This document shows, one piece after another, positions 29,923 to 60,034 of a DNA stretch of 64,000 nt. Below the pieces are notes generated by a model. It worked only from the letters and a program-made list of their open reading frames with translations. It searched no databases and had not been told where the DNA came from. The position numbers and the translations under genes are program-made. The stretch's first letter is position 1. Each line of letters starts with the position of its first letter. This DNA comes from Procambarus clarkii (taxonomy: Eukaryota; Arthropoda; Malacostraca; Decapoda; Cambaridae). Location of the stretch: contig NC_091220.1 in NCBI RefSeq assembly GCF_040958095.1, positions 18,327,750 to 18,391,749 of the forward strand. Direction: 5' to 3'.

Positions 29923-30098
29923 TCAGTAAAGTAGAACTTGCCGAACTGTGTAAATTGCCTCGTTGTCAGAGCCAGCAACCAGAGTGGAGCCTTCTACATC
30001 AAGGGAGTTGATGGGTAGAGGTGAATGTGGGATCACATTTGTGGTGTCTATAGCTCCTCGAGCGACATCACTACTCAACCACACGGTAACACTTCCTC
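29923..30098 (-). CDS. NUP43: NUP43 exon 8 (stop codon)
   Basis: It encodes GGSVTVWLSSDVARGAIDTT, then NSLDVEGSTLVAGSDNEAIY and TVRQVLLY, with stop TGA at 29925-29923. Human ends NTLDVLGPCLVCGTDAEAIY, so the frame and end are secure. Confidence 0.95.
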
Positions 30099-33000
30099 CT
30101 GTAAATATTGTACCATTTAGTTTTTTAATAACAGATCAACACTTAAAATCATTTAAGGGAACTTTGTCCATTTCCTATACCTGGTGACAAGGTAGCTAGC
30201 TCTATAATGATCTCTCCAGTATTACTAAAATGTCGCCATAACAGTTCTCACCTAACGGTTCTCGGGTACTTTTGAAGGGGACGTGTGTGGGTCTAGCAGA
30301 GGCAGAAGCATCCCAGTGCAGCAGCTGACCATCAAGCCCACAGGTAAACACATGCTCAGGTGCACCAGGATGGAAACATACTTCACTAACTGAAACAAGA
30401 GAAATCTAAGAAGTTGTCCAACTTCAATCATACACAATATTAAAATGTTTATCCATTACTTTTTCATGGTAGTAGAGAATTGTTTTCTGTAAGTTTGTAG
30501 CATAACCAGAGATTGCCTTAAGGCACCACTTTCACCACAGCGCTTTTTTTTTTTTCTTTTTTAACGTGTAGTCCAACCTGTCCTCCTACAAATTACGTAA
30601 CTGCTATTTTGCACTACGCCCAAAAAGGCCATAATTTGAAAATTAAAATTTTTTTTTTTTTCAGAAATGGCAAGTTAAGGATCCTCAGGCAGGTTAGGAG
30701 GGCAGGAAGTTCTAAGACGTCAACATGAAACTTTCAATTAACGGTTTTCGTGACCTCTCCTAACTTAATAGTCTAAGCCAGAAGACCCAAAATAGAAAAC
30801 GGGACAGTACACTAATTTTGCGAGCCGATTTCATCTTGAATTGCGTAAATTTAGCCCGAGTGCGCATTCGAGCAAAAAGCGACGTAATTTGTAAAAGGAC
30901 ACAAATGACAGGTTGTGTAACATTTACGTAACGGGTAAAGGATGTTGATGCGGGACGCTCGATGATGAAAGATAATTACAACTAAATTTTTAAGAACATG
31001 AAATTTGTAAAATGAAGATATCGTAATAAATTTATTTTCATGACACTCATCCTCAAAAGCTCAGGGTGTGTTATTTGCTGGCCCTAATAAAAAATGAGTA
31101 AAGTGGGTGTGGGTTACCAGGAGGTAAGTACTAGTACAGGGGTATAATGATGTTTTGGGTAAGATATGGTCCAAATAAGGAACAAACCAAAGTGGGAATA
31201 ACCAGTCATGCTAGTATGCTAAAATCAAATGGTTTCACTTTACATTATGTCTCTAGTATAGAAGAGATGTCTTGTTAAACTATCAGGACTAGTTTTTTGT
31301 AACTTCAGTATTTTGAATAATGCCATGTATACAAAATATTTCAAATGCAACATACCAATGTACAACCCTGCATTATTTAAGAAAATATTAGCTCAGCCTC
31401 CAGACACAAGTAATTGTATAAGAGCTGCCTTGTTAGAACTATTAGACCTGCAGTTTCCTCAAGACTCGGAACTTGACACACACACTGGCAAAGAATCATC
31501 TTGACTTTACTTGATGTCCAAACGGTTTGGAAAGGATGGGGGAGGTAGAGGGATGGGGAGATGAAATTCTGGAAGAGGACACGGGGGGAGACATCTCCCG
31601 TCACGCAGGGTGCAGTTGCACCTCCACAGATCTCCAGTATCAGCTCTTGATACTCAATGGCTCAAAAGGGCCACCACTTACGGGCTATTCATGCCCGTGC
31701 CACCTTTTGGGTGGCTTAAACTTCATCAATCAATCAATGGAAGAGGATGTGGGTGTAGAGAGAGAGGTGGTTTGAAAGTTTGGTGGCCTGTCATCAATCA
31801 TCATAGATATTCATAAAGTAAGATCAATGAATAATGGTCAGAGGAACACACTTACTTGGTCCATTGTGAGCAGATATTATGGTGAAGGGTTGGTTGATAT
31901 TACGCATGTCCCATATAGCCAGAGCTCCGTCCTCCCCTCCTGCAGCCACCAGGTGTTGCTGTGTTGGGTGGCCAGCAAGGTCACACACGGCAATCTGTCA
32001 AAAAATATTCATCGGTAATCATAAAAAGTGTTGAGCCATTATGGCTACAGTGTGCAACAGATCTTTGATATTGTTCAGGGTGCCAAGATGAGCAATACCA
32101 AAGTCTGTCCCCGTAGATTCTATCAAGGGACGTATGATCCAAAGGATTTGCTTAAAAGCAATATTTTGATCTTGAAATAATACATTCTACAAGAGGTGTG
32201 ACTTTTCAGAAAAAAAGTGGGATTAGACATTTTGCCTTTTTGAGCAATACATCAAATACTTGAGACTTCCTTTGGAAAAAAATAGTTTTGTGCACATTTG
32301 GATAACTTATTGCATGTAAATCAAATTATTGAATATATGAATAGTATATACATAACAATATATAAACCACATACAAGTGGCTATAAATATTATAATTAGT
32401 TTTTACTTTTGTTTTGGTGGCTCTGGCTGATCATTGTTGCACAGTAACAACAAGTAAGCAATTATCAAAAGAAAGCAACATGCTTGGAAGATTTTTTATG
32501 ACTTTTCATGACACTACATTAACATGAATATCCTAATCTATGTATAAAAAGCTGATTGTTATCATTAAACAACTATTTATTTAGATAACCCCACTGTTTA
32601 GTGTAACCTTTTCTCTTGATATCTGCATACCTTTGCTTCCAAATTAAAATCTAGCCAATCACAAATTTGATGCACAAAATCCAAAACTGCCAGAATCTCT
32701 CCTCTAGGTTCATTTTGTGTGAAACAATTTTACGCAATTGAGAAATTGTATCTAGCTTCACGTAAGTCATCTTGTGCTGAAGGACAGCCATAAGTGCTAA
32801 GGTATCTTGCAATTGAGTCCTTGCTTAGGCAAACATTCTTTTACCCAAGATAACTGCTGTGAAACTGTCCCTCATATCATGGCCATGGATTGCACACCAG
32901 TGTCTATACGCAATGACGTGGCAGAAAAAAGTTAAAATAAAAAGTTGTATATCTGAGATATTGTTACTGTTGTATATCTGTAGATACTGTTGTAAATCTG

Positions 33001-36000
33001 TAGATACTGTTGTATATCTGTAGATACTGTTGTATATCTGTAGATACTGTTGTATATCTTTAGATACTGTTGTATATCTGTAGGGGAGCCGAGCGGACAG
33101 CACGCTGGACTTGTGATCCTGTGGGCCTGGGTTCGATCCCAGGCGCCGGCGAGAAACAATGGGCAGAGTTTCTTTCACCCTATGCCCTTGTTACCTAGCA
33201 GTAAAATAGGTACCTGGGTGTTAGTCAGCTGTCACGGGCTGCTTCCTGGGGGGTGGAGGCCTGGTCGAAGACCGGGCCGCGGGGACACTAAAGCCCCGAA
33301 ATCATCTCAAGATAACCTCAAGATAGATCTGGTATGGCACTAATATTGCTCAAGAAATCTGCACTGGCACGTTCCTTAAATACACTGATCATGCCATTTA
33401 AAATTTAAGTAATAATTTACAAAATCTCGAGTTGATATGAACCTGGTCCGGACTGAGAAGAGTGGCCTTGGCTGGTTGAGATGCTCGAAGGTCCCACAAC
33501 TTGAGGTGCCCTTGCATATTAGCCGTTACAACCTCGCTAGCTCTCACGTACACCACAGCATACACACTGCATCCACCCACACTTTCTAGAAATCAAAAGA
33601 AATAAAGGTAAAAGATTATAATGTGTAATAGGTTCCCGTTAGTTCATTTGGCAGAAAACTGAAAGAGAAGCTATTCAAGAATGGGGTCAGGTATAAATGG
33701 AGCACGAGTGGACACACAACCGCTCATTGTTATATCAACTGTAGCACTAGAGCTGCCATACTACCACACTCAAAGCACTTCGTTAAAACAGTTCTTAATA
33801 TTATCAATACTGCGCAAACTTATTAAAAGCAGTTCTTAATATTAACAGTACTGTGCAAGCTTATTAAAACATTACAACAGAAGTCAAATAAACCTGCCCA
33901 TCTTTACCTATAGTCAGAACTCTTTATTCATGTAGTCCATTACTCACAAAAGTCTTAATACATAACATAACCAAATGTATACATGCCCCGGGTGTCCTAC
34001 CTGCATGTTGTTGTTGTTTTCCTTGTGGTTTAAACACTTTATGAATTATATTCTAGTATTAGGGCACCGTCCAAATGTTCTCCATCAGTTGCAAGTGTAC
34101 AAATTTACTTTATAGAGCATAACTGTGACTGGGAAATACAAATTTCTCTCCCCTACATCACTGATAAATGAATAATCAACTTTCTTCAGTATCCGCATTA
34201 TCCCACATGGTTACCCACTAAAGTATGATTCCAGTGTGTATGGGAGAGTAGATTATGCAGTCTTCATATACTGTACATTCAAAGCCCATTATTTGTAAAG
34301 GGGCTGCGCATGCAAGTTGCCACCAGATTCTTGATTTCAACAAATGCTTAAATTATCACATCATCTTGCTTATTCTAATAACTAATATTTAATAATGCCG
34401 CTTGAAAATAAGAAACTGTGATGGAGAGGGAAATGAATAAGGAGAGAGTCAGCTTGTTAATGAAAGAATAGTAGTATGGGGGCAATAAATTACTTTTTGT
34501 GGCACAGAACAAGGTGTTTGCATGTGAAATTCACAGTTTGTAAGGGTTAAGATGGCTTCTGTTAAGTTGTGGTGACTGCATATACACTGTATGGCAACAG
34601 AAGGGATAATTAAAGTTTTCTGTGGAGGTTGGAGAGAGAGAGAATATGATACCAAAATGTAGTGATCATTATTATGGGTGATATGAATAATAGTGAAGGA
34701 CAGGCCCTGGAGCATAATGTGACAGATGCACATGCTGTGCCAAGTATTTCATACATTTTAAATTTATGAATATACATAAATATACTTGGCATGTCAAAGA
34801 TGAAAGGGTAGATAAAGACCAAGTTCTTACTGTTGCAGAAACAATAATAATAGTTTTCCATATCTCATCTGAAAAAAAACACTACAGTATTGTACAAGTA
34901 TTGACATTTAAATGTTTCATGGCATGATTCAAGTGTCAATAGCACATTACCTATGTTTCTGATAGGATTTTTCTGATTTGGATTAATGATGACAAGTTTT
35001 CCGTCTTCACCAACCGAAGCGATTTGATCTCCATTGGTGGCCAGGGCGGTGCATGGAGCAGGACCTGCCAAGAAATGGTAAATTTACAGTGCATTTGTAG
35101 TATAAAGCATTAACCCTTGGATTCCTTCCATTGTCGTGTATTTATTTCCTAGGTGACTACAGACATCACTACATAACAATTTTACATTTTGTGCCATTAT
35201 TTCAATACTGGTGGTGCCTATATGGCTCCCACAGCTCAGTGGTATCACCTAGCAGTCATGAAGTCAGCGTACTTCAACTTCTGATCCACCATCATACAAT
35301 AATGATGGTAGTTGCCCAAGCAAAACTAGACTGTACGGCATAAGACTTGCGTGGTATATTTAACACTTTTGTATAAAAATTTATAATTCCATATTTATAT
35401 TGTTAGGTTTTGCTTTGGCCTATATGGAGAGAGATGAAGAGATCTGCATGTCTCGGGGCCAAAAAAGATTCCATTACGAAAATAAATTTAAAAAGGTTGG
35501 TGTTCCAAGCAACAACTTAAAAGAAAATGATTTATTTGCATAAATAACAATTACTTTCATGATTCATTAATTGATTCATCAGCTCAGAAAAACTGCAATG
35601 TCCAGAAGACAAAATAATAAGGAACAAAGCCATACTAAAGTCAGAGTCATTACTCTAACAAAGTGGTACAGTATTATAAGGTTAAACATGCTGGCAATTT
35701 ACTCACAAACATAATAACTGAGAAATTGTTATTTAACAACCTCGAGCTAGCAGCAAATAACCTATAATGTATATCTTTTATTTGTTTTAATTTTATTGTC
35801 AACTGAATTTTTAGCAATTGTCATTTTTTGTAAGCATGTTATATACAGGAGAGAATGTTAGTGTAATGTAATACAGTATTGTACTGTACTACATGTAATG
35901 TAAAGTACAGAAAAGCATAGCTCTCCTGTACTTTAGCAAGCATAGCTTGGTTCCACCCGTGAATCTCACAACCTCAACAGAGTTGTATCTTGTCGGAGGC

Positions 36001-38375
36001 GGCATGATTACGAGTTGTGTTCTCATGTGCCCACATCCACTGTGAGGTTAAGCTCGGACTTCATTTTAGGCAAATGATAATTGTATCTATGTTGTATATG
36101 TTCCATTTCATGCATTATAAATATACATAATGCACACATCTAAATGGTTTGTTTGAATCCCTCAATTACAAATAGTTGTGGTGTTAATTGAAACTCTTAT
36201 ATGCAAATAAGTGCAATTTTACTTAAAGTGTTCCTAACTAAATTATTACACAACTGTAACTCTTTCCCCTAAAGGAATTAATTAAAAATTTTCTGTTGAT
36301 ATAGTCAAATAAAACAAATTATAAACACTGAACTTAATTTTGTGCCAGAAGATTCTCACATTATAAATTCTGATACACACATGACTTTACACTTCCAAAA
36401 TAACAAACTCAAAAGTAACACATGACAGCTTTGACCAACTGAAGACGGCATGATGCTACAAGTAACTCAAACTGAAACACGCCATCTTCCCCCAAATTTT
36501 TAATAACCGACATATTTCTCTAAATTCATAACAATAGAATTACTGTACTGTACAGTATATTAATATGTACTGTAGTAGTAGTAGGCATCCATCAGTCTCG
36601 GGAGACTATGGAGTTGCGCTCTGGTTGTCGGTCTGGAGTGTGTTCACCTGGAATCAGGTGTTACCTAGCAGTAAAATAGGTACCTGGGTGTTAGTCAGCT
36701 GTCACGGGCTGCTTCCTGGGGGTGGAGGCCTGGTCGAGGACTGGGCCGCGGGGACACTAAAGCCCAGAAATCATCTCAAGATAACCTGGGGTGAGGCCAC
36801 TCCAGACCACTCCAATGCTGTATCATACGTGCCATAGAGACCTACCTCCCATAAATGTGTGCGCTCTGTCCCAAGACATTTTTTCCTCCAGGTGATTGTT
36901 GCCGTCATGTTGGTACAGCTTTACGTCACCGAGGTTGCCGCCCACTGCAAGCATGTCCCGTGTGATGTACTATAACAATAAAATAAAAACGTGTTTATTT
37001 ATGGGAACAAAACATTAGGTTTTTAAATCAAACTAATTCAGTAGTTAGGTGAAGGATGTTTTTATAATGCAAAATTTTAATTATGCCATATTTACCTCAA
37101 ACACAAATACAGTACAGTATTGTTACTGTGAACCTCAATATCTATACTGTGTTCTGTATTAAATATTTTACCAATAAAGAATGCCATTTCCTAATGTTTC
37201 CAATATTGTACAGTACTGTACATGTTACTAAATTTCACCTGACAGCTGTCATTCTGCACATTAGCATACATATGAATGAAGCAAAACGGTTAACCCTAAG
37301 CCATGTTCGATAAGTTTTTTTTTATATAATTATATACACTACCTGTATGTCACTGACACTGCCTGGGTGAGGCAGCTGATGTATTTGTGTCGGGTCGTCA
37401 TCCGACTCCGGGACGTGCCATACTTCGACAACATTATCCTGTAAAAGCAACATATGACATCAATACTCTTCAATTTATCTGAATTTACAAGAGGGCCACT
37501 ATCTCTTTAGTGGCCTCGATGAGGACAGGAAGCTGGTGGCTTGTCATATATCCCCCCCCTCAATTTATCAAGGGAAAGGGAACTATCAGAAGAAAGTGCC
37601 AAGCCTTTATGGTTATAACACTGGGTCCCCGTGGGTGGGACCCCAGGGGGACCCACCGTGTCGTCCCAGGACCCCAGGGGGGACCCACCGTGTCGTCCCA
37701 GGACCCCAGGGGGACCCACCGTGTCATGCCAGGACCCCAGGGGGACCCACCATGTCGTCCCAGGACCCCAGGGGGACCCACCGTGTCGTGCCAGGACCCC
37801 AGGGGGACCCACCATGTCGTCCCAGGACCCCAGGGGGACCCACCATGTCATCCCAGGACCCCAGGGGGACCCACCGTGTCGTGCCAGGACCCCAGGGGGA
37901 CCCACCATGTCGTCCCAGGACCCCAGGGGGACCCACCGTGTCGTGCCAGGACCCCAGGGGGACCCACCGTGTCGTCCCAGGACCCCAGGGGGACCCACCG
38001 TGTCGTCCCAGGACCCCAGGGGGACCCACCATGTCGTCCCAGGACCCCAGGGGGACCCACCGTGTCGTGCCAGGACCCCAGGGGGACCCACCATGTCGTC
38101 CCAGGACCCCAGGGGGACCCACCGTGTCGTCCCAGGACCCCAGGGGGACCCACCGTGTCGTCCCAGGACCCCAGGGGGACCCACCGTGTCGTCCCAGGAC
38201 CCCAGGGGGACCCACCATGTCGTGCCAGGACCCTAGGGGAACCCACCGTGTCGTCCCAGGTGCCGCTGACGAAGGTGTCTGTCCTGCCATAGTCAGAGAG
38301 CGGCGGCTTCCACCTCACACACTTCACCTTCCTGGAGACATACTTCTTGCTCACCACCACGCCGCCCGCCATCAT
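29923..38375 (-). CDS. NUP43: Nucleoporin NUP43, WD40 beta-propeller, complete in 8 exons
   Basis: NUP43 is a beta-propeller subunit of the Y (Nup107-160) complex of the nuclear pore. Exons in transcription order: 38375-38247, 37438-37343, 36969-36846, 35064-34951, 33585-33443, 31994-31856, 30389-30252, 30098-29923. All phases agree and give 352 aa against about 380 in human. Matching blocks include TFVSGTWDD (human TFATGSWDN), ASVGEDGKLVIIN, VTANMQGHLKLWDLR, LVAAGGEDGALAIWDMR, FHPGAPEHVFTCGLDGQLLH and the C-terminus PINSLDVEGSTLVAGSDNEA then IYTVRQ. The start is taken at MMAGG; the second ATG has the better context (A at -3, G at +4). An in-frame ATG at 38420-38418 would add 15 residues from repeat-derived sequence and is less likely. 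The gene is head-to-head with FHIP2. A 31-bp minisatellite begins at the exon 1 donor. Confidence 0.95.
30252..30389 (-). CDS. NUP43: NUP43 exon 7
   Basis: It encodes SEVCFHPGAPEHVFTCGLDG then QLLHWDASASARPTHVPFKS (human VHFHPSNPEHLFTCSEDGSL). The acceptor is TGTTTCAG and the donor TAG|GTGAGA, phase 1. Confidence 0.95.
   Translation of the reverse strand, partial: LVKYVSILVHLSMCLPVGLMVSCCTGMLLPLLDPHTSPSKVPENR
30390..31855 (-). other. NUP43 intron 6
   Basis: It is AT-rich without recognised genes, apart from a short interspersed repeat at 31590-31740. Confidence 0.7.
31590..31740. repeat. Short interspersed repeat with ATCA tail
   Basis: A GC-mixed block with inverted words GGGCCACCACTTACGGGC / GCCCGTGCCACC, ending in ATCAATCAATCAATG. 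It looks like a small retroposon. Confidence 0.45.
31856..31994 (-). CDS. NUP43: NUP43 exon 6
   Basis: It encodes IAVCDLAGHPTQQHLVAAGG then EDGALAIWDMRNINQPFTII, aligning to human VDRHPNQQHVVATGGQDGML. The acceptor is TTGACAG and the donor CAA|GTAAGT, phase 1. Confidence 0.95.
31995..32960 (-). other. NUP43 intron 5, 3' part
   Basis: AT-rich intron sequence; nothing recognised. Confidence 0.6.
32961..33082. repeat. 20-bp minisatellite, about 6 units
   Basis: The unit is TAGATACTGTTGTATATCTG, nearly perfect, running straight into the SINE that starts at 33083. It lies in NUP43 intron 5. Confidence 0.9.
33083..33325 (+). mobile_element. tRNA-headed SINE, copy 1
   Basis: The 5' tRNA-like head has a B-box (GGTTCGATCCC). 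The body has AACAATGGGCAGAGTTTCTT and GTACCTGGGTGTTAGTCAGC, and the tail is ATCTCAAGATAACCTCAAGA. Compared with 59461 it lacks about 8 bases of the D-arm/A-box region. Confidence 0.85.
33443..33585 (-). CDS. NUP43: NUP43 exon 5
   Basis: It encodes ESVGGCSVYAVVYVRASEVV then TANMQGHLKLWDLRASQPAK, with a WD dipeptide ending the blade. The acceptor is ATTTCTAG and the donor CAG|GTTCAT (weak after GT), phase 0. Confidence 0.92.
33586..34950 (-). other. NUP43 intron 4
   Basis: AT-rich intron; no recognised features. Confidence 0.6.
34951..35064 (-). CDS. NUP43: NUP43 exon 4
   Basis: It encodes PAPCTALATNGDQIASVGED then GKLVIINPNQKNPIRNI, matching human APCTGVVCNNPEIVTVGEDG. The acceptor is TTGGCAG and the donor TAG|GTAATG, phase 1. 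Confidence 0.94.
   Translation of the reverse strand, partial: VLLHAPPWPPMEIKSLRLVKTENLSSLIQIRKILSET
35065..36845 (-). other. NUP43 intron 3
   Basis: AT-rich sequence to about 36560. A compound repeat block then fills 36570-36815. Confidence 0.6.
36570..36815 (+). mobile_element. SINE 3' half inside a GGCATCCATCAG repeat
   Basis: 36661-36787 is the 3' half of the tRNA-headed SINE (from TTACCTAGCAGTAAAATAGG). On its left is TAGTAGGCATCCATCAGTCT...GTCTGGAGTG, and on its right the inverse GTGAGGCCACTCCAGAC. An inverse copy of the flanking repeat without SINE is at 46315-46455. Confidence 0.65.
36846..36969 (-). CDS. NUP43: NUP43 exon 3
   Basis: It encodes YITRDMLAVGGNLGDVKLYQ then HDGNNHLEEKMSWDRAHTFM, a WD40 blade. 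The acceptor is TGTTATAG and the donor GAG|GTAGGT, phase 1. Confidence 0.92.
37343..37438 (-). CDS. NUP43: NUP43 exon 2
   Basis: It encodes DNVVEVWHVPESDDDPTQIH then QLPHPGSVSDIQ (compare human ISLWSIGDF...IRHHGDVMDLQ). The acceptor is TTTTACAG and the donor CAG|GTAGTG; it is 96 bases, phase 0 to 0. Confidence 0.92.
37509..37625 (-). repeat. Composite of LINE remnant and family P
   Basis: AGTGGCCTCGATGAGGACAG matches the 6377/20024 family. AAAGTGCCAAGCCTTTATGG matches family P. It lies in NUP43 intron 1 beside the 31-bp array. Confidence 0.5.
37641..38247 (-). repeat. 31-bp minisatellite of duplicated NUP43 exon 1 splice donors, about 20 units
   Basis: The ACCCACC word of each unit starts at 37651, 37683, then every 31 bp to 38241. 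On the minus strand each unit contains CCTGGGACGACACGGTGGGT or a close variant, the same sequence as the end of NUP43 exon 1 plus its GT donor. Since 31 is not a multiple of 3, the array is read in all three frames, and long ORFs cover it on both strands; these are repeat artefacts rather than separate genes. Confidence 0.95.
38247..38375 (-). CDS. NUP43: NUP43 exon 1 (start codon)
   Basis: It encodes MMAGGVVVSKKYVSRKVKCV then RWKPPLSDYGRTDTFVSGTW and DDT. The donor is ACG|GTGGGT, phase 0. The last 14 or so exon bases plus the donor are the template of the downstream 31-bp tandem array, so the exact donor used is ambiguous. Confidence 0.88.
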
Positions 38376-38388
38376 CCTCCTCCACACA

Positions 38389-38866
38389 CTACTACCACCA
38401 CTGGAGTCTGCTACCACCACTGGAGTCTGCTACCACCACCACTGAAGTCTGCTTCCACCACCACTGGAGTCTGCTGCTACCACCACTGGAGTCTCCTACC
38501 ACCACTAGAGTCTGCTACCACCACCACTGGAGTCTCCTACCACCACTAGAGTCTGCTACCACCACCAGAGTCTGCTACCACCACCACTGGAGTCTGCTAC
38601 CACCACCACGACCACCACTGGCGTCTGCTACCACCACTGGAGTCTGCTACCACCACCACGACCACCACTGGCGTCTGCTACCACCACTGGAGTCTGCTAC
38701 CACCACCACGACCACCACTGGCGTCTGCTACCACCACTGGAGTCTGCTGCAACCACCACGACCACCACTGGCGTCTGCTACCACCACTGGAGTCTGCTAC
38801 CACCACCACTGGCGTCTGCTACCACCACTGGAGTCTCCTACCACCACTACCACCACCACTGGAGAT
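38389..38866. repeat. CAC-rich minisatellite upstream of NUP43
   Basis: Units built from CACCACTGGAGTCTGCTACC with variable numbers of ACC triplets. Between 38601 and 38800 a 50-bp higher-order unit repeats at 38601, 38651, 38701 and 38751. It begins about 14 bp upstream of the NUP43 start codon, so it covers the 5' UTR or promoter. Confidence 0.9.
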
Positions 38867-38875
38867 TGTTTACAA

Positions 38876-39678
38876 ACACTGCTTGAAAATAACTTTTACT
38901 CACCGAATACAGTTTAATTATTGCTAGGTGAAGAGAAGCATCAGGTGTATGAAAGCTTTGGGAATATACGTAGATATAATACCAGGAAATAATAAAAATA
39001 AATTATCTATGTTCCAATTTCAATTTCAAATTTTGTTAAATTTCACACGTAACTGATGCTCCCCTATATATACCTTATATATCATATGTGTATTATTATA
39101 TGTATTATATATATTTATACGTATTTATATATAGGAATTTAGACAGTAATGAGTGTTAGTAAGTCTATGGGTCTACATTACCATAATTATAATATACCGT
39201 CACCCCTTACCCAGCGGTCAATCTATAATAAATTATATATCTATTGCAAATATTTGGTTGATATAATTAATATGTTAAAATTCCTATTGCACCTAGAGGT
39301 ATTTATTTATGTTTACTGATTAAAATAGGACTGGAACTAGGGGCATATAATGCCGGTAAAGTCAGATAAAAATACTGCTCAAAACGCTATATACGTGTTA
39401 GTGGCTTTATAAGAATTATAAAAAAATATTATTCTAATGTAATTTCACCAAATCATTGTACCTTCTTGTAAATAAAATATTTTTGTTATTATTATTATTA
39501 TTATTATTATTTTGTGTTGTGAATGTCCACGTCGCAGGCGCGCGCGCGCACCCTCCTCCTCAAGGAAGAATTCTCGTCTTATTTCAGGTCTTATTTCAAG
39601 GGTAATTTCCCCCGGTGGTAGCGGCCCCCGCCCCCCACTGGTGAGTTGAGCCCCCTGGGGGCCTGCCAGGGACGCTGG
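38876..39678. other. NUP43-FHIP2 spacer, AT-rich part
   Basis: AT-rich with TA and ATT microsatellites (39490-39510), then GC-rich from about 39530. No gene is recognised. Confidence 0.7.
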
Positions 39679-40672
39679 CCAGGTAGGGAGCTGTCACTGT
39701 TGACAGTCTGCCAGGTAGGGAGCTGTCACTGTTGACAGTCTGCCAGGTAGGGAGCTGTCACTGTTGACAGTCTGCCAGGTAGGGAGATCTCACTGTTGAC
39801 AGTCTCCCAGGTAGGGAGCTGTCACTGTTGACAGTCTGCCAGGTAGGGAGCTGTCACTGTTGACAGTCTGCCAGGTAGGGAGCTGTCACTGTTGACAGTC
39901 TGCCAGGTAGGGAGCTGTCACTGTTGACAGTCTGCCAGGTAGGGAGCTGTCACTGTTGACAGTCTGCCAGGTAGGGAGCTGTCACTGTTGACAGTCTGCC
40001 AGGTAGGGAGCTGTCACTGTTGACAGTCTGCCAGGTAGGGAGCTGTCACTGTTGACAGTCTGCCAGGTAGGGAGCTGTCACTGTTGACAGTCTGCCAGGT
40101 AGGGAGATCTCACTGTTGACAGTCTGCCAGGTAGGGAGATCTCACTGTTGACAGTCTCCCAGGTAGGGAGCTGTCACTGTTGACAGTCTCCCAGATAGGG
40201 AGCTGTCACTGTTGACAGTCTCCCAGGTAGTGAGCTGTCACTGTTGACAGTCTCCCAGGTAGGGAGCTGTCACTGTTGACAGTCTCCCAGGTAGGGAGCT
40301 GTCACTGTTGACAGTCTCCCAGGTAGGGAGCTGTCACTGTTGACAGTCTGCCAGGTAGGGAGATCTCACTGTTGACAGTCTCCCAGGTAGGGAGCTGTCA
40401 CTGTTGACAGTCTCCCAGGTAGGGAGCTGTCACTGTTGACAGTCTCCCAGATAGGGAGCTGTCACTGTTGACAGTCTCCCAGGTAGGGAGCTGTCACTGT
40501 TGACAGTCTGCCAGGTAGGGAGATCTCACTGTTGACAGTCTCCCAGGTAGGGAGCTGTCACTGTTGACAGTCTCCCAGGTAGGGAGCTGTCACTGTTGAC
40601 AGTCTCCCAGATAGGGAGCTGTCACTGTTGTTGACAGTCTCCCAGGTAGGGAGCTGTCAAGGATGTCTTGCC
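39679..40672. repeat. 32-bp minisatellite, about 30 units, with internal hairpin
   Basis: The unit starts CCAGGTAGGGAGCTGTCACT and continues GTTGACAGTCTG. CTGTCA-CTGT-TGACAG in each unit is a perfect 6-bp stem with a 4-base loop. Sequence variants (AGATCT, CAGATAGG, TCTCCC) are arranged in a 160-bp, five-unit higher-order repeat at about 40352 and 40512. One unit near the end has a 3-base insertion. Confidence 0.95.
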
Positions 40673-41157
40673 AGTCTCCTAGGTAGGAAGGCTGTCAGGA
40701 ATGTGTTGCCAGGAGCTGTCAAGGATGTGTTGACTGGCTACCAAGACAGGCAGCCAATGCACTAAGTGTACGTGTTTCTTTAATGAACTAACTAATGCGA
40801 TGAAGGGCCGGGCAGGTGACAGGTGTATGTACTGCCCGTTACCCTAGACCTGTCGCCTTGTGGAGTGTGCGGCATGGGGGAAGGGGGTGTGAAGGGGTCA
40901 CCCCCCCCCTTCCCCACCTTCCCCAGTGGGGGAGGGGGTGACTTTGCCTGGTGGGGTCGGGCCGTGGTGCTCCCAGGATGGCACGGTCTAATTTGTTACA
41001 CGTTTATTGTATATGTGTACATACATTAGTACGTAAAACAAAACGGCAGATAACATAGGTGCGCAAGCCGAGTGTAAGCTGCATTTCTATAGCTATAACA
41101 AAAAATTTAGTAAATATTAAATGCATATTTTAAATGTTGGTACTGTATATAACTTTG

Positions 41158-41194
41158 CACACACACACACACACGTTGTGTGTGTGTGTGGTGC
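41158..41194. repeat. (CA)n/(GT)n inverted microsatellite
   Basis: A CA tract followed at once by a GT tract, able to fold on itself. Confidence 0.8.
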
Positions 41195-41345
41195 AGAAGA
41201 CAAAAGGGATGGCTATACCAAAGGAAACAGAGTTAGTATAAATGGGGTTAAGTCAGAGTGGGAAAATGTTGTAAGTGGAGTGCCTCAAGGCTCTGTCCTG
41301 GGACCTCTGTTGTTTATAATATATATAAATGATTTAGATTCAGGT
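41195..41345 (+). mobile_element. LINE reverse transcriptase fragment
   Basis: An open frame reads [20 protein letters not shown] followed by NDLDSGL, the fingers/palm motif of non-LTR reverse transcriptases. The fragment is short but undamaged, so it is fairly young. Confidence 0.85.
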
Positions 41346-41514
41346 TTGAGTTTAATGTATATATAATACATTAATTATAAGGAATTAGTGTATATATAAT
41401 TCATTGTGTCGGGGGACAGGCAGCCAGTTTATTACAGTATATGTTAGGCTTATATCGAGGTCTTCCCCAGGGTCAAATTACTGACCCTCCCCAGGATACA
41501 ACCCCCTCAACAAG

Positions 41515-41664
41515 CTGTCGCCAGAGCAGGTGCTTCACCTGTCGCCAGAGCAGGTACTTCACCTGTCGCCAGAGCAGGTGCTTCACCTGTCGCCAGAGCA
41601 GGTGCTTCACCTGTCGCCAGAGCAGGTGCTTCACCTGTCGCCAGAGCAGGTGCTTCACCTGTCA
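41515..41664. repeat. 24-bp minisatellite, 6 units, with E-box palindrome
   Basis: The unit starts CTGTCGCCAGAGCAGGTGCT and ends TCAC. Across each unit join, CAGGTG-CTT-CACCTG forms an inverted pair of E-boxes; one unit reads CAGGTACTT. All frames are open, but this is repeat, not protein. Confidence 0.93.
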
Positions 41665-58590: not shown

Positions 58591-59460
58591 TGATTGTCAG
58601 GTATGGTGACTTCTCTACTCTACATTCCTGTCACAGTTGTGTGTCTGCCCCGATCATGGCTTATTACAGGCACTCGCAGCGGAAGCGACATTGGTGACGG
58701 GTAAAAGACGGCAATCCTCTTAGATTTGATATATATAATGTGCACCAAAATCTTTGTAGGTATTTTGGTTTCAACTAAGAAAAATGAATGTAAGTTAACA
58801 TTTAAGCACCTGATACTTTTATAAAATGTTCAACAAGATAACTTATTGAGCTCAACACAGATCTGACATTGTTATCTTGAATACTTGCCATATAATTTTT
58901 GCTTGTTGTGAAATGGGTAATAGCTCGCTTATTTAAATGTTACTTTTATTTAATTTATTGATAACCTATGCTTCTTGTTGCTATTTTTTCTTTGTGTGTC
59001 ACTCTTCAAATTTAGTTAATGTATAGATGGTCTCTTTGGTATCACATGCACAAGTCTTATAGTGAGGAAGAGAGTGCAATTGTGAATACTCTTCCTGTCC
59101 CGGTGTTGCATTTGCATGGGGAATAATGCACAGGTTGCACCCTATTTTGTAAAGGGAATGTAGTCATGTTAGTGCACAAATATACACAGCAATAGATGGG
59201 ATGGAAATGGTAGAAATTTATGTATTTTTTTAAGCAGCTTCTGGGACTAGATTAAGTTTAATGACGGAATTCTGCAGTGGAGAAAGAAAGCATCACACTG
59301 GTCAGTCTTTATTTAAAAGGACTTTTTGTATATGTTGTAACTTTAGCTGCAAGTCAGAACCTCAACTGTGTTGTGAAGGCAGTTCTCCACAACCTAGATG
59401 TGCCATATTGTCATGTATTGTATTTTCTGCATCTGCTCTTTCTTGTTTGTGCGCGTACAA

Positions 59461-59710
59461 GGGAGCCGGTCGGCCGAGCGGACAGCACGCTGGACTTGTG
59501 ATCCTGTGGTCCCGGGTTCGATCACGGGCGCCGGCAAGAAACAATGGGCAGAGTTTCTTTCACCCTATGCCCCTGTTACCTAGCAGTAAAATAGGTACCT
59601 GGGTGTTAGTCAGCTGTCACGGGCTGCTTCCTGGGGGTGGAGGCCTGGTCGAGGACCGGGCCGCGGGGACACTAAAGCCCCGAAATCATCTCAAGAAAAC
59701 TCAAGATAAC
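59461..59710 (+). mobile_element. tRNA-headed SINE, full-length reference copy
   Basis: The head GGGAGCCGGTCGGCCGAGCG and B-box GGGTTCGATCACGG resemble a Ser/Leu-type tRNA. The body and tail match 33083, 36661, 47831 and 45846. It is about 250 bp, and the last 20 or so bases are CTCAAGA repeats. Confidence 0.9.
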
Positions 59711-60034
59711 GTACATGAAGAGAATAGCGGTGGTTAAAAATATATATGCGGTATATTTATTTCAATTGAATACTATGCTGCAGTATTATGCTAAACACTC
59801 GTGCATCTTTGCCATTTTAAATTTTCTGGCACCTTTTTCTTGTTGAGAATGATCTCAATTTTATAGAAATTGCTGTTGTGGTAATTTAGTGATGATTAGT
59901 TTTCTGGTTATTGGTCTCACTGCTGTACTGTAACAGGGCCATAATACTTTTGTTTTGTAATGCCAATATTTATTTGGTGATGTTTGCTAGCAGTTGCAGG
60001 GAGCTGTGAGAGGTGGGGGGACATCACCTATGTT

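Follow-up and report, generated by a model that had tools for sequence, protein, structure and literature searches.

A donor-spanning minisatellite of 20 units at the exon 1/intron 1 junction of a NUP43 gene

The closest described system is the VNTR in intron 18 of human ABCA7 (De Roeck et al. 2018, PMC5954066). According to excerpts of that paper, the VNTR comprises 23.7 copies of a 25-bp unit (592 bp), and its first two bases are the exon 18 donor. The second donor is used, and retention of one unit was indeed found in RNA. Two frameshifting isoforms are given in these excerpts as 14 ± 6 and 2 ± 1%, the second of which is the unit retention, judging by the order of the text. VNTR length was associated with reduced expression and with increased exon 19 skipping, while unit retention was independent of length. 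This next exon (132 nt) was skipped in frame 3.2 times more often with the largest diploid combination than with the smallest, and in 90% of BA10 cases the sum of the alternative transcripts was above the level of the canonical transcript. These transcript levels and length effects speak against regarding such arrays as generally harmless.

Related phenomena have been reported at other splice sites. Internal tandem repeats with units of about 30 bp at human exon-intron boundaries can change splicing, according to excerpts of De Grassi and Ciccarelli (2009, PMC2812944), and introns gained when an AG|GT proto-splice site was duplicated in tandem are described for Drosophila (PMC2891723) and reported for potato RdRp (PMC4974935). 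A crayfish satellitome paper (PMC13130569) reports that minisatellites are abundant in decapods, and its text contains neither the word 'intron' nor 'exon'. A donor array in NUP43 was not named in the titles or abstract beginnings among the related-topic matches listed, which does not establish its absence from print, and NUP43 by name, combined with other terms, was absent from the best 12 of 748 literature matches.

We analysed a window of 64,000 nt, meaning the whole stretch of DNA under study, in which Tandem Repeats Finder detected an array at 37638-38260 on the minus strand with a period of 31 bp, 20.1 copies, 94% matches and a score of 1118. With its head-to-tail units within the range of about 10-100 bp and their high identity, the array is a minisatellite, and it lies across the exon 1/intron 1 junction of a NUP43 gene with the following features.

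37638-38260, minus strand: minisatellite of 20 tandem 31-bp units, each composed of 14 nt like the exon end and 17 nt like the intron start and each with GTGGGT
38247-38375, minus strand: coding part of NUP43 exon 1, 129 nt, ending in phase 0 at ACG|GTGGGT (gene model and homology)
38241-38249, minus strand: donor 1, ACG|GTGGGT, the putative functional 5' splice site (gene model; gapless protein alignment across the junction)
38247-38260, minus strand: exon 1 portion of unit 1, CCTGGGACGACACG, encoding WDDT of a conserved WD motif; taken as the copy source, the direction of copying being presumed
37848-37850, minus strand: in-frame TGA ending the read-through frame, a C to T change at CpG in unit 14
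37439-38246, minus strand: NUP43 intron 1, 808 nt, or 218 nt if the last array donor is used
37343-37438, minus strand: NUP43 exon 2, 96 nt, starting and ending in phase 0
29924-36969, minus strand: exons 3-8 of NUP43 with their GT-AG introns, down to the region of the stop codon (gene model)

The array begins 14 nt inside exon 1 and extends 609 bp into the 808-nt intron. Its unit consensus, obtained by cutting the array into units from 38260, is CCTGGGACGACACGGTGGGTCCCCCTGGGGT, and GTGGGT is kept in all 20 units, as the 9-mer ACG|GTGGGT in 13 and as ATG|GTGGGT in the remaining 7. A 25-nt piece of the unit matched at 19 places with up to three mismatches, as opposed to none in 100 shuffles, which excludes chance as the source of the array; the one unit missed has an inserted base. 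Because unit 19 carries one extra base, the last donor lies at +590 and not at +589. The original prediction had described about 20 copies of the donor, one every 31 bp, over about 600 bp of intron 1, and proved correct in nearly every detail. Its span of 37641-38375 does not give the limits of the array, which occupies 37638-38260; 38375 belongs to the start codon.

The minisatellite at this junction is real in the assembled sequence. Its G+C content is 72%, compared with 39% for the window, and the length of arrays of such kind is difficult to measure, for which Southern blots were used in the ABCA7 study, as excerpts of the paper state (PMC5954066). The copy number could have been inflated or collapsed during assembly of a GC-rich repeat. 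However, the substitutions among the units are varied, and no higher-order periodicity stands out at any lag from 1 to 7, unlike the pattern of a copy-paste error. Since the gene around the array is intact as well, we consider such an artefact very improbable. The substitutions, counted from the unit listing with the three shifted letters of unit 19 excluded, amount to 15 cells in units 2-20; nine are C to T at CpG, hinting at germline CpG methylation, and six are G to C. At the far end of the array, 14 nt at 37622-37635 match the unit in inverted orientation with one mismatch, and are perhaps the scar of a template switch.

The identity of the gene was established by full-length homology and an intact frame. 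The model comprises eight exons from 38375 to 29924 on the minus strand, with GT-AG borders at all introns, and encodes 352 residues with no internal stop. Its best three matches among solved structures are Nup43 chains, which cover residues 10-349 or 9-349 of the model. The first, 6lk8_C (E 2.9e-77), named MGC154553 or Nup42 by its depositors, is one that we take to be from Xenopus, and the next two, 5a9q_0 and 4i79_A (Nucleoporin Nup43; both E 1.2e-68), are presumably human. A WD40 repeat in the model also passes the Pfam cut-off. These matches bear out the earlier assignment to NUP43.

Splicing from donor 1 yields a normal-looking protein, in which SGTWDDT is joined to DNVVEVW. The best-match alignment across the junction, SGTWDDTDNVVEVW against TGSWDNEENKVCVW, has no gap there. 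Chiefly because of this gapless alignment to vertebrate Nup43 at 38247|38246, donor 1 is very likely the functional donor of exon 1, exactly where it had been predicted. Furthermore, the 14 exon-derived nucleotides that are repeated encode part of the conserved motif, suggesting that the exon was the source and that the copies most likely spread outward from the junction. The exon-derived part of the unit consensus is identical to the exon end, as would also be seen had the array come first and the exon end been recruited from it later. Yet the exon end encodes a motif that aligns gaplessly with vertebrate Nup43, and we regard this reverse order of events as extremely improbable.

The anticipated presence of a near-identical 5' splice site in each unit agrees with the modelled pairing to U1. 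In ViennaRNA, donor 1 gave -8.1 kcal/mol and the two types within the array -8.1 (ACG) or -7.9 (ATG), within the range of -5.1 to -9.9 kcal/mol for the other six donors of NUP43; the 19 downstream sites are thus predicted to pair with U1 almost as well as donor 1. Donor 1 has the highest unpaired probability of the 20 (0.022; the other 19 have a median of 0.0024 and do not exceed 0.0072) when local folding over 150 nt is calculated with a thermodynamic model, although by chance each site would come first once in 20 cases. The complete array (621 nt) is not specially folded, being less stable than its dinucleotide shuffles (z +3.2, 30 shuffles), and six copies of the real unit in a row were likewise below the average stability of 60 shuffled units repeated in the same way. 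Canonical G-quadruplexes were absent from the array with loops of up to 7, and 46 overlapping matches appeared with loops of up to 12.

The array can add sequence to the mRNA only by lengthening exon 1. The dinucleotide AG is absent from units 2-20, the single AG of the whole array being in unit 1, so that no internal exon can start there and cryptic internal exons within the array are ruled out; the same absence occurs in 17% of shuffled units and is unremarkable. If used, donors 4, 7, 10 and 13 (+93, +186, +279 and +372 nt) would leave the full NUP43 frame open with 31, 62, 93 and 124 additional residues. The remaining 15 of the 19 downstream donors lead to a stop in exon 1, 2 or 3, at 609-945 nt upstream of the last exon junction. 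Stops located so far upstream of the last exon junction are expected to trigger nonsense-mediated decay. The exon frame had been predicted to stay open to about 37850, and it indeed ends at the TGA of 37850-37848, into which the donors 15 and 18 units on also run. The accompanying claim that donors 3, 6, 9 and further such steps on would add multiples of 31 residues therefore holds for +3, +6, +9 and +12 and fails for +15 and +18.

The four complete open frames would permit functional NUP43 isoforms in which a turn of the first propeller blade is enlarged by 31, 62, 93 or 124 residues, and the insertion point would lie within a WD-type hairpin, judging from the alignment with Nup43. However, 58% of shuffled units are free of stops in all three phases, like the real unit, and the array is also open on the plus strand. 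Openness is therefore no signal of coding, and we reject a coding meaning of the open frame. In addition, Pfam found no match at E 0.001 in the read-through of exon 1 into the array, nor any in the 363-residue ORF on the plus strand. As 15 of the 19 donors break the frame or reach a stop, and a TGA is present in unit 14, we assign little credence to such isoforms.

Chance also accounts for other properties of the donors. The seven positions from -1 to +6 do not vary in units 2-19, with P 0.18 given six variable columns, or P 0.45 when calculated by hand with the three variable columns left after the shifted-reading columns of unit 19 are dropped; we therefore reject this invariance as evidence of selection on the donors. 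A donor-like site as good or better is held by 7.6% of single-base-shuffled units and is not striking by itself. The interpretation of the locus as an array of decoy donors is possible, and it is weakened by these results, since chance would produce both the open frame and the invariant donors, and 15 of 19 donors give premature stops.

The position of the array is unusual but not compelling. Seven arrays of at least 100 bp, after merging of overlapping rows, cover 4% of the window. When the arrays were placed at random, at least one of the 14 NUP43 junctions was spanned in 31% of trials. This crowding by minisatellites and the frequent overlap at random suggest that no special function is needed. 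An array with 14 nt or less on one side of a junction was obtained in only 4% of trials, under a placement model that ignores selection.

Several other repeats lie in the window. The minisatellite at 38389-38862 (rows of 19-22 bp and a 50-bp row) starts 13 bp upstream of the NUP43 start codon, so that the 5' end of the gene has two large arrays with only 128 bp of unique sequence between them. At 39678-40659 on the plus strand, a 32-bp unit is repeated 30.6 times, and its consensus contains CAG|GTAGGG, a strong donor-like site (U1 pairing -11.2 kcal/mol) that none of 500 single-base-shuffled units equalled; the plus strand there showed no recognisable gene. The array at 41515-41663 (24 bp, 6.2 copies, 98% matches) holds a donor-like CAG|GTGAAG on the minus strand, and 3.4% of shuffled units were as good. 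A possible reverse-transcriptase remnant is found at 41121-41363 on the plus strand (RVT_1, E 1.3e-4; its 22.2 bits fall short of the curated cut-off, 29.6). ORF fragments with SSKIGTWVLVSCHGLLPGG occur at 33044-33343, 36538-36837 and 59234-59737, pointing to a dispersed repeat within NUP43 introns and elsewhere. Viral contigs contained no exact match to the minisatellite unit or to a piece of this dispersed repeat, a result that has no bearing on animals, and Rfam gave 0 matches at gathering scores.

We consider it probable that the locus is a near-neutral donor-spanning minisatellite, with donor 1 dominant, the downstream donors leaky, and their transcripts rare and mostly decaying. The minisatellite would have been seeded when a short stretch spanning the exon 1/intron 1 junction of NUP43 was duplicated in tandem, and its expansion into the intron would have produced the 20 units, each with a copy of the exon end and the 5' splice site. 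Donor 1 would dominate through its place next to the real exon and its low degree of structure, the lowest of all the sites, and the downstream donors, chiefly the second, may be used at a low level. The products would be mostly frameshifted mRNA removed by nonsense-mediated decay, and the array would be near-neutral and probably variable in length between individuals. Points against this near-neutral reading include the 4% placement figure, the ABCA7 array, which is not neutral, and the choice among competing donors. According to excerpts of PMC5585400, the donor closest to the acceptor can be preferred by SRSF1 and the one farthest from it by hnRNP A1, and the preference of SRSF1 would predict use of the far units rather than donor 1.

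The ABCA7 case also raises the alternative of a length-dependent rheostat, in which the array would compete for U1 or alter splicing and transcription, so that longer alleles would lower normal NUP43 mRNA through unproductive donors or exon 2 skipping. Excerpts of PMC5954066 associate VNTR length with lower expression and more in-frame skipping of the next exon, exon 2 of NUP43 is likewise symmetric (96 nt), and GGG runs are dense, at 87 per kb. The same excerpts, however, indicate that unit retention itself does not change with length, and the NUP43 array, at 623 bp, falls well short of the 5.6 kb by which expanded ABCA7 alleles were defined. We consider such a rheostat unlikely, and are also doubtful, slightly more so, that a length-variable array of 20 near-identical 5' splice sites tunes NUP43 output, with each unit shifting the balance between normal, decaying and 31-residue-extended products. 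If this tuning were true, nature would already have set up at this locus an experiment on spliceosomal choice between identical donors.

Since a downstream unit donor is used in ABCA7, some decoy use of the NUP43 array donors is plausible by analogy, and exon 2, being in phase 0 on both sides, could be skipped in frame as in ABCA7 (96 nt versus 132 nt). In anatomy, the NUP43 array is close to a twin of the ABCA7 VNTR. Both directly follow an exon and include its splice donor, here with GTGGGT in 20 of 20 units and the first copy at the putative donor of the gene; in both, the unit length is not a multiple of three (31 versus 25 bp), and the sizes are similar (20.1 copies and 623 bp versus 23.7 copies and 592 bp). 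The gene and the unit differ, and almost certainly the animal group, and the published array starts at the GT, whereas 14 exonic nucleotides belong to the unit in NUP43. RNA use and length variation, putative for the NUP43 array, were shown for ABCA7.

The repeats in the excerpts of PMC2812944 are likewise minisatellites with units of about 30 bp at exon-intron boundaries, but they are found within segmental duplications, average about four copies and have been connected with the emergence of novel introns, whereas in NUP43 an existing intron is lengthened. Intron gain at AG|GT similarly copies a splice signal by tandem duplication, but requires an acceptor AG beside the donor. The NUP43 junctions are CG|GT or TG|GT and the acceptor half is missing, with one AG in the whole array, and this route does not fit. 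Donor-spanning minisatellites are thus a kind already known from human ABCA7, and the NUP43 array is a new example and not a new mechanism. With 20 donors of near-equal predicted U1 pairing placed 31 nt apart, it offers a natural test, readable from long-read cDNA, of position effects on 5' splice-site choice. If confirmed by RNA, the array would parallel the ABCA7 risk VNTR in a distantly related animal, which would suggest that minisatellites spanning a donor have independent origins and that a conserved gene can tolerate them.
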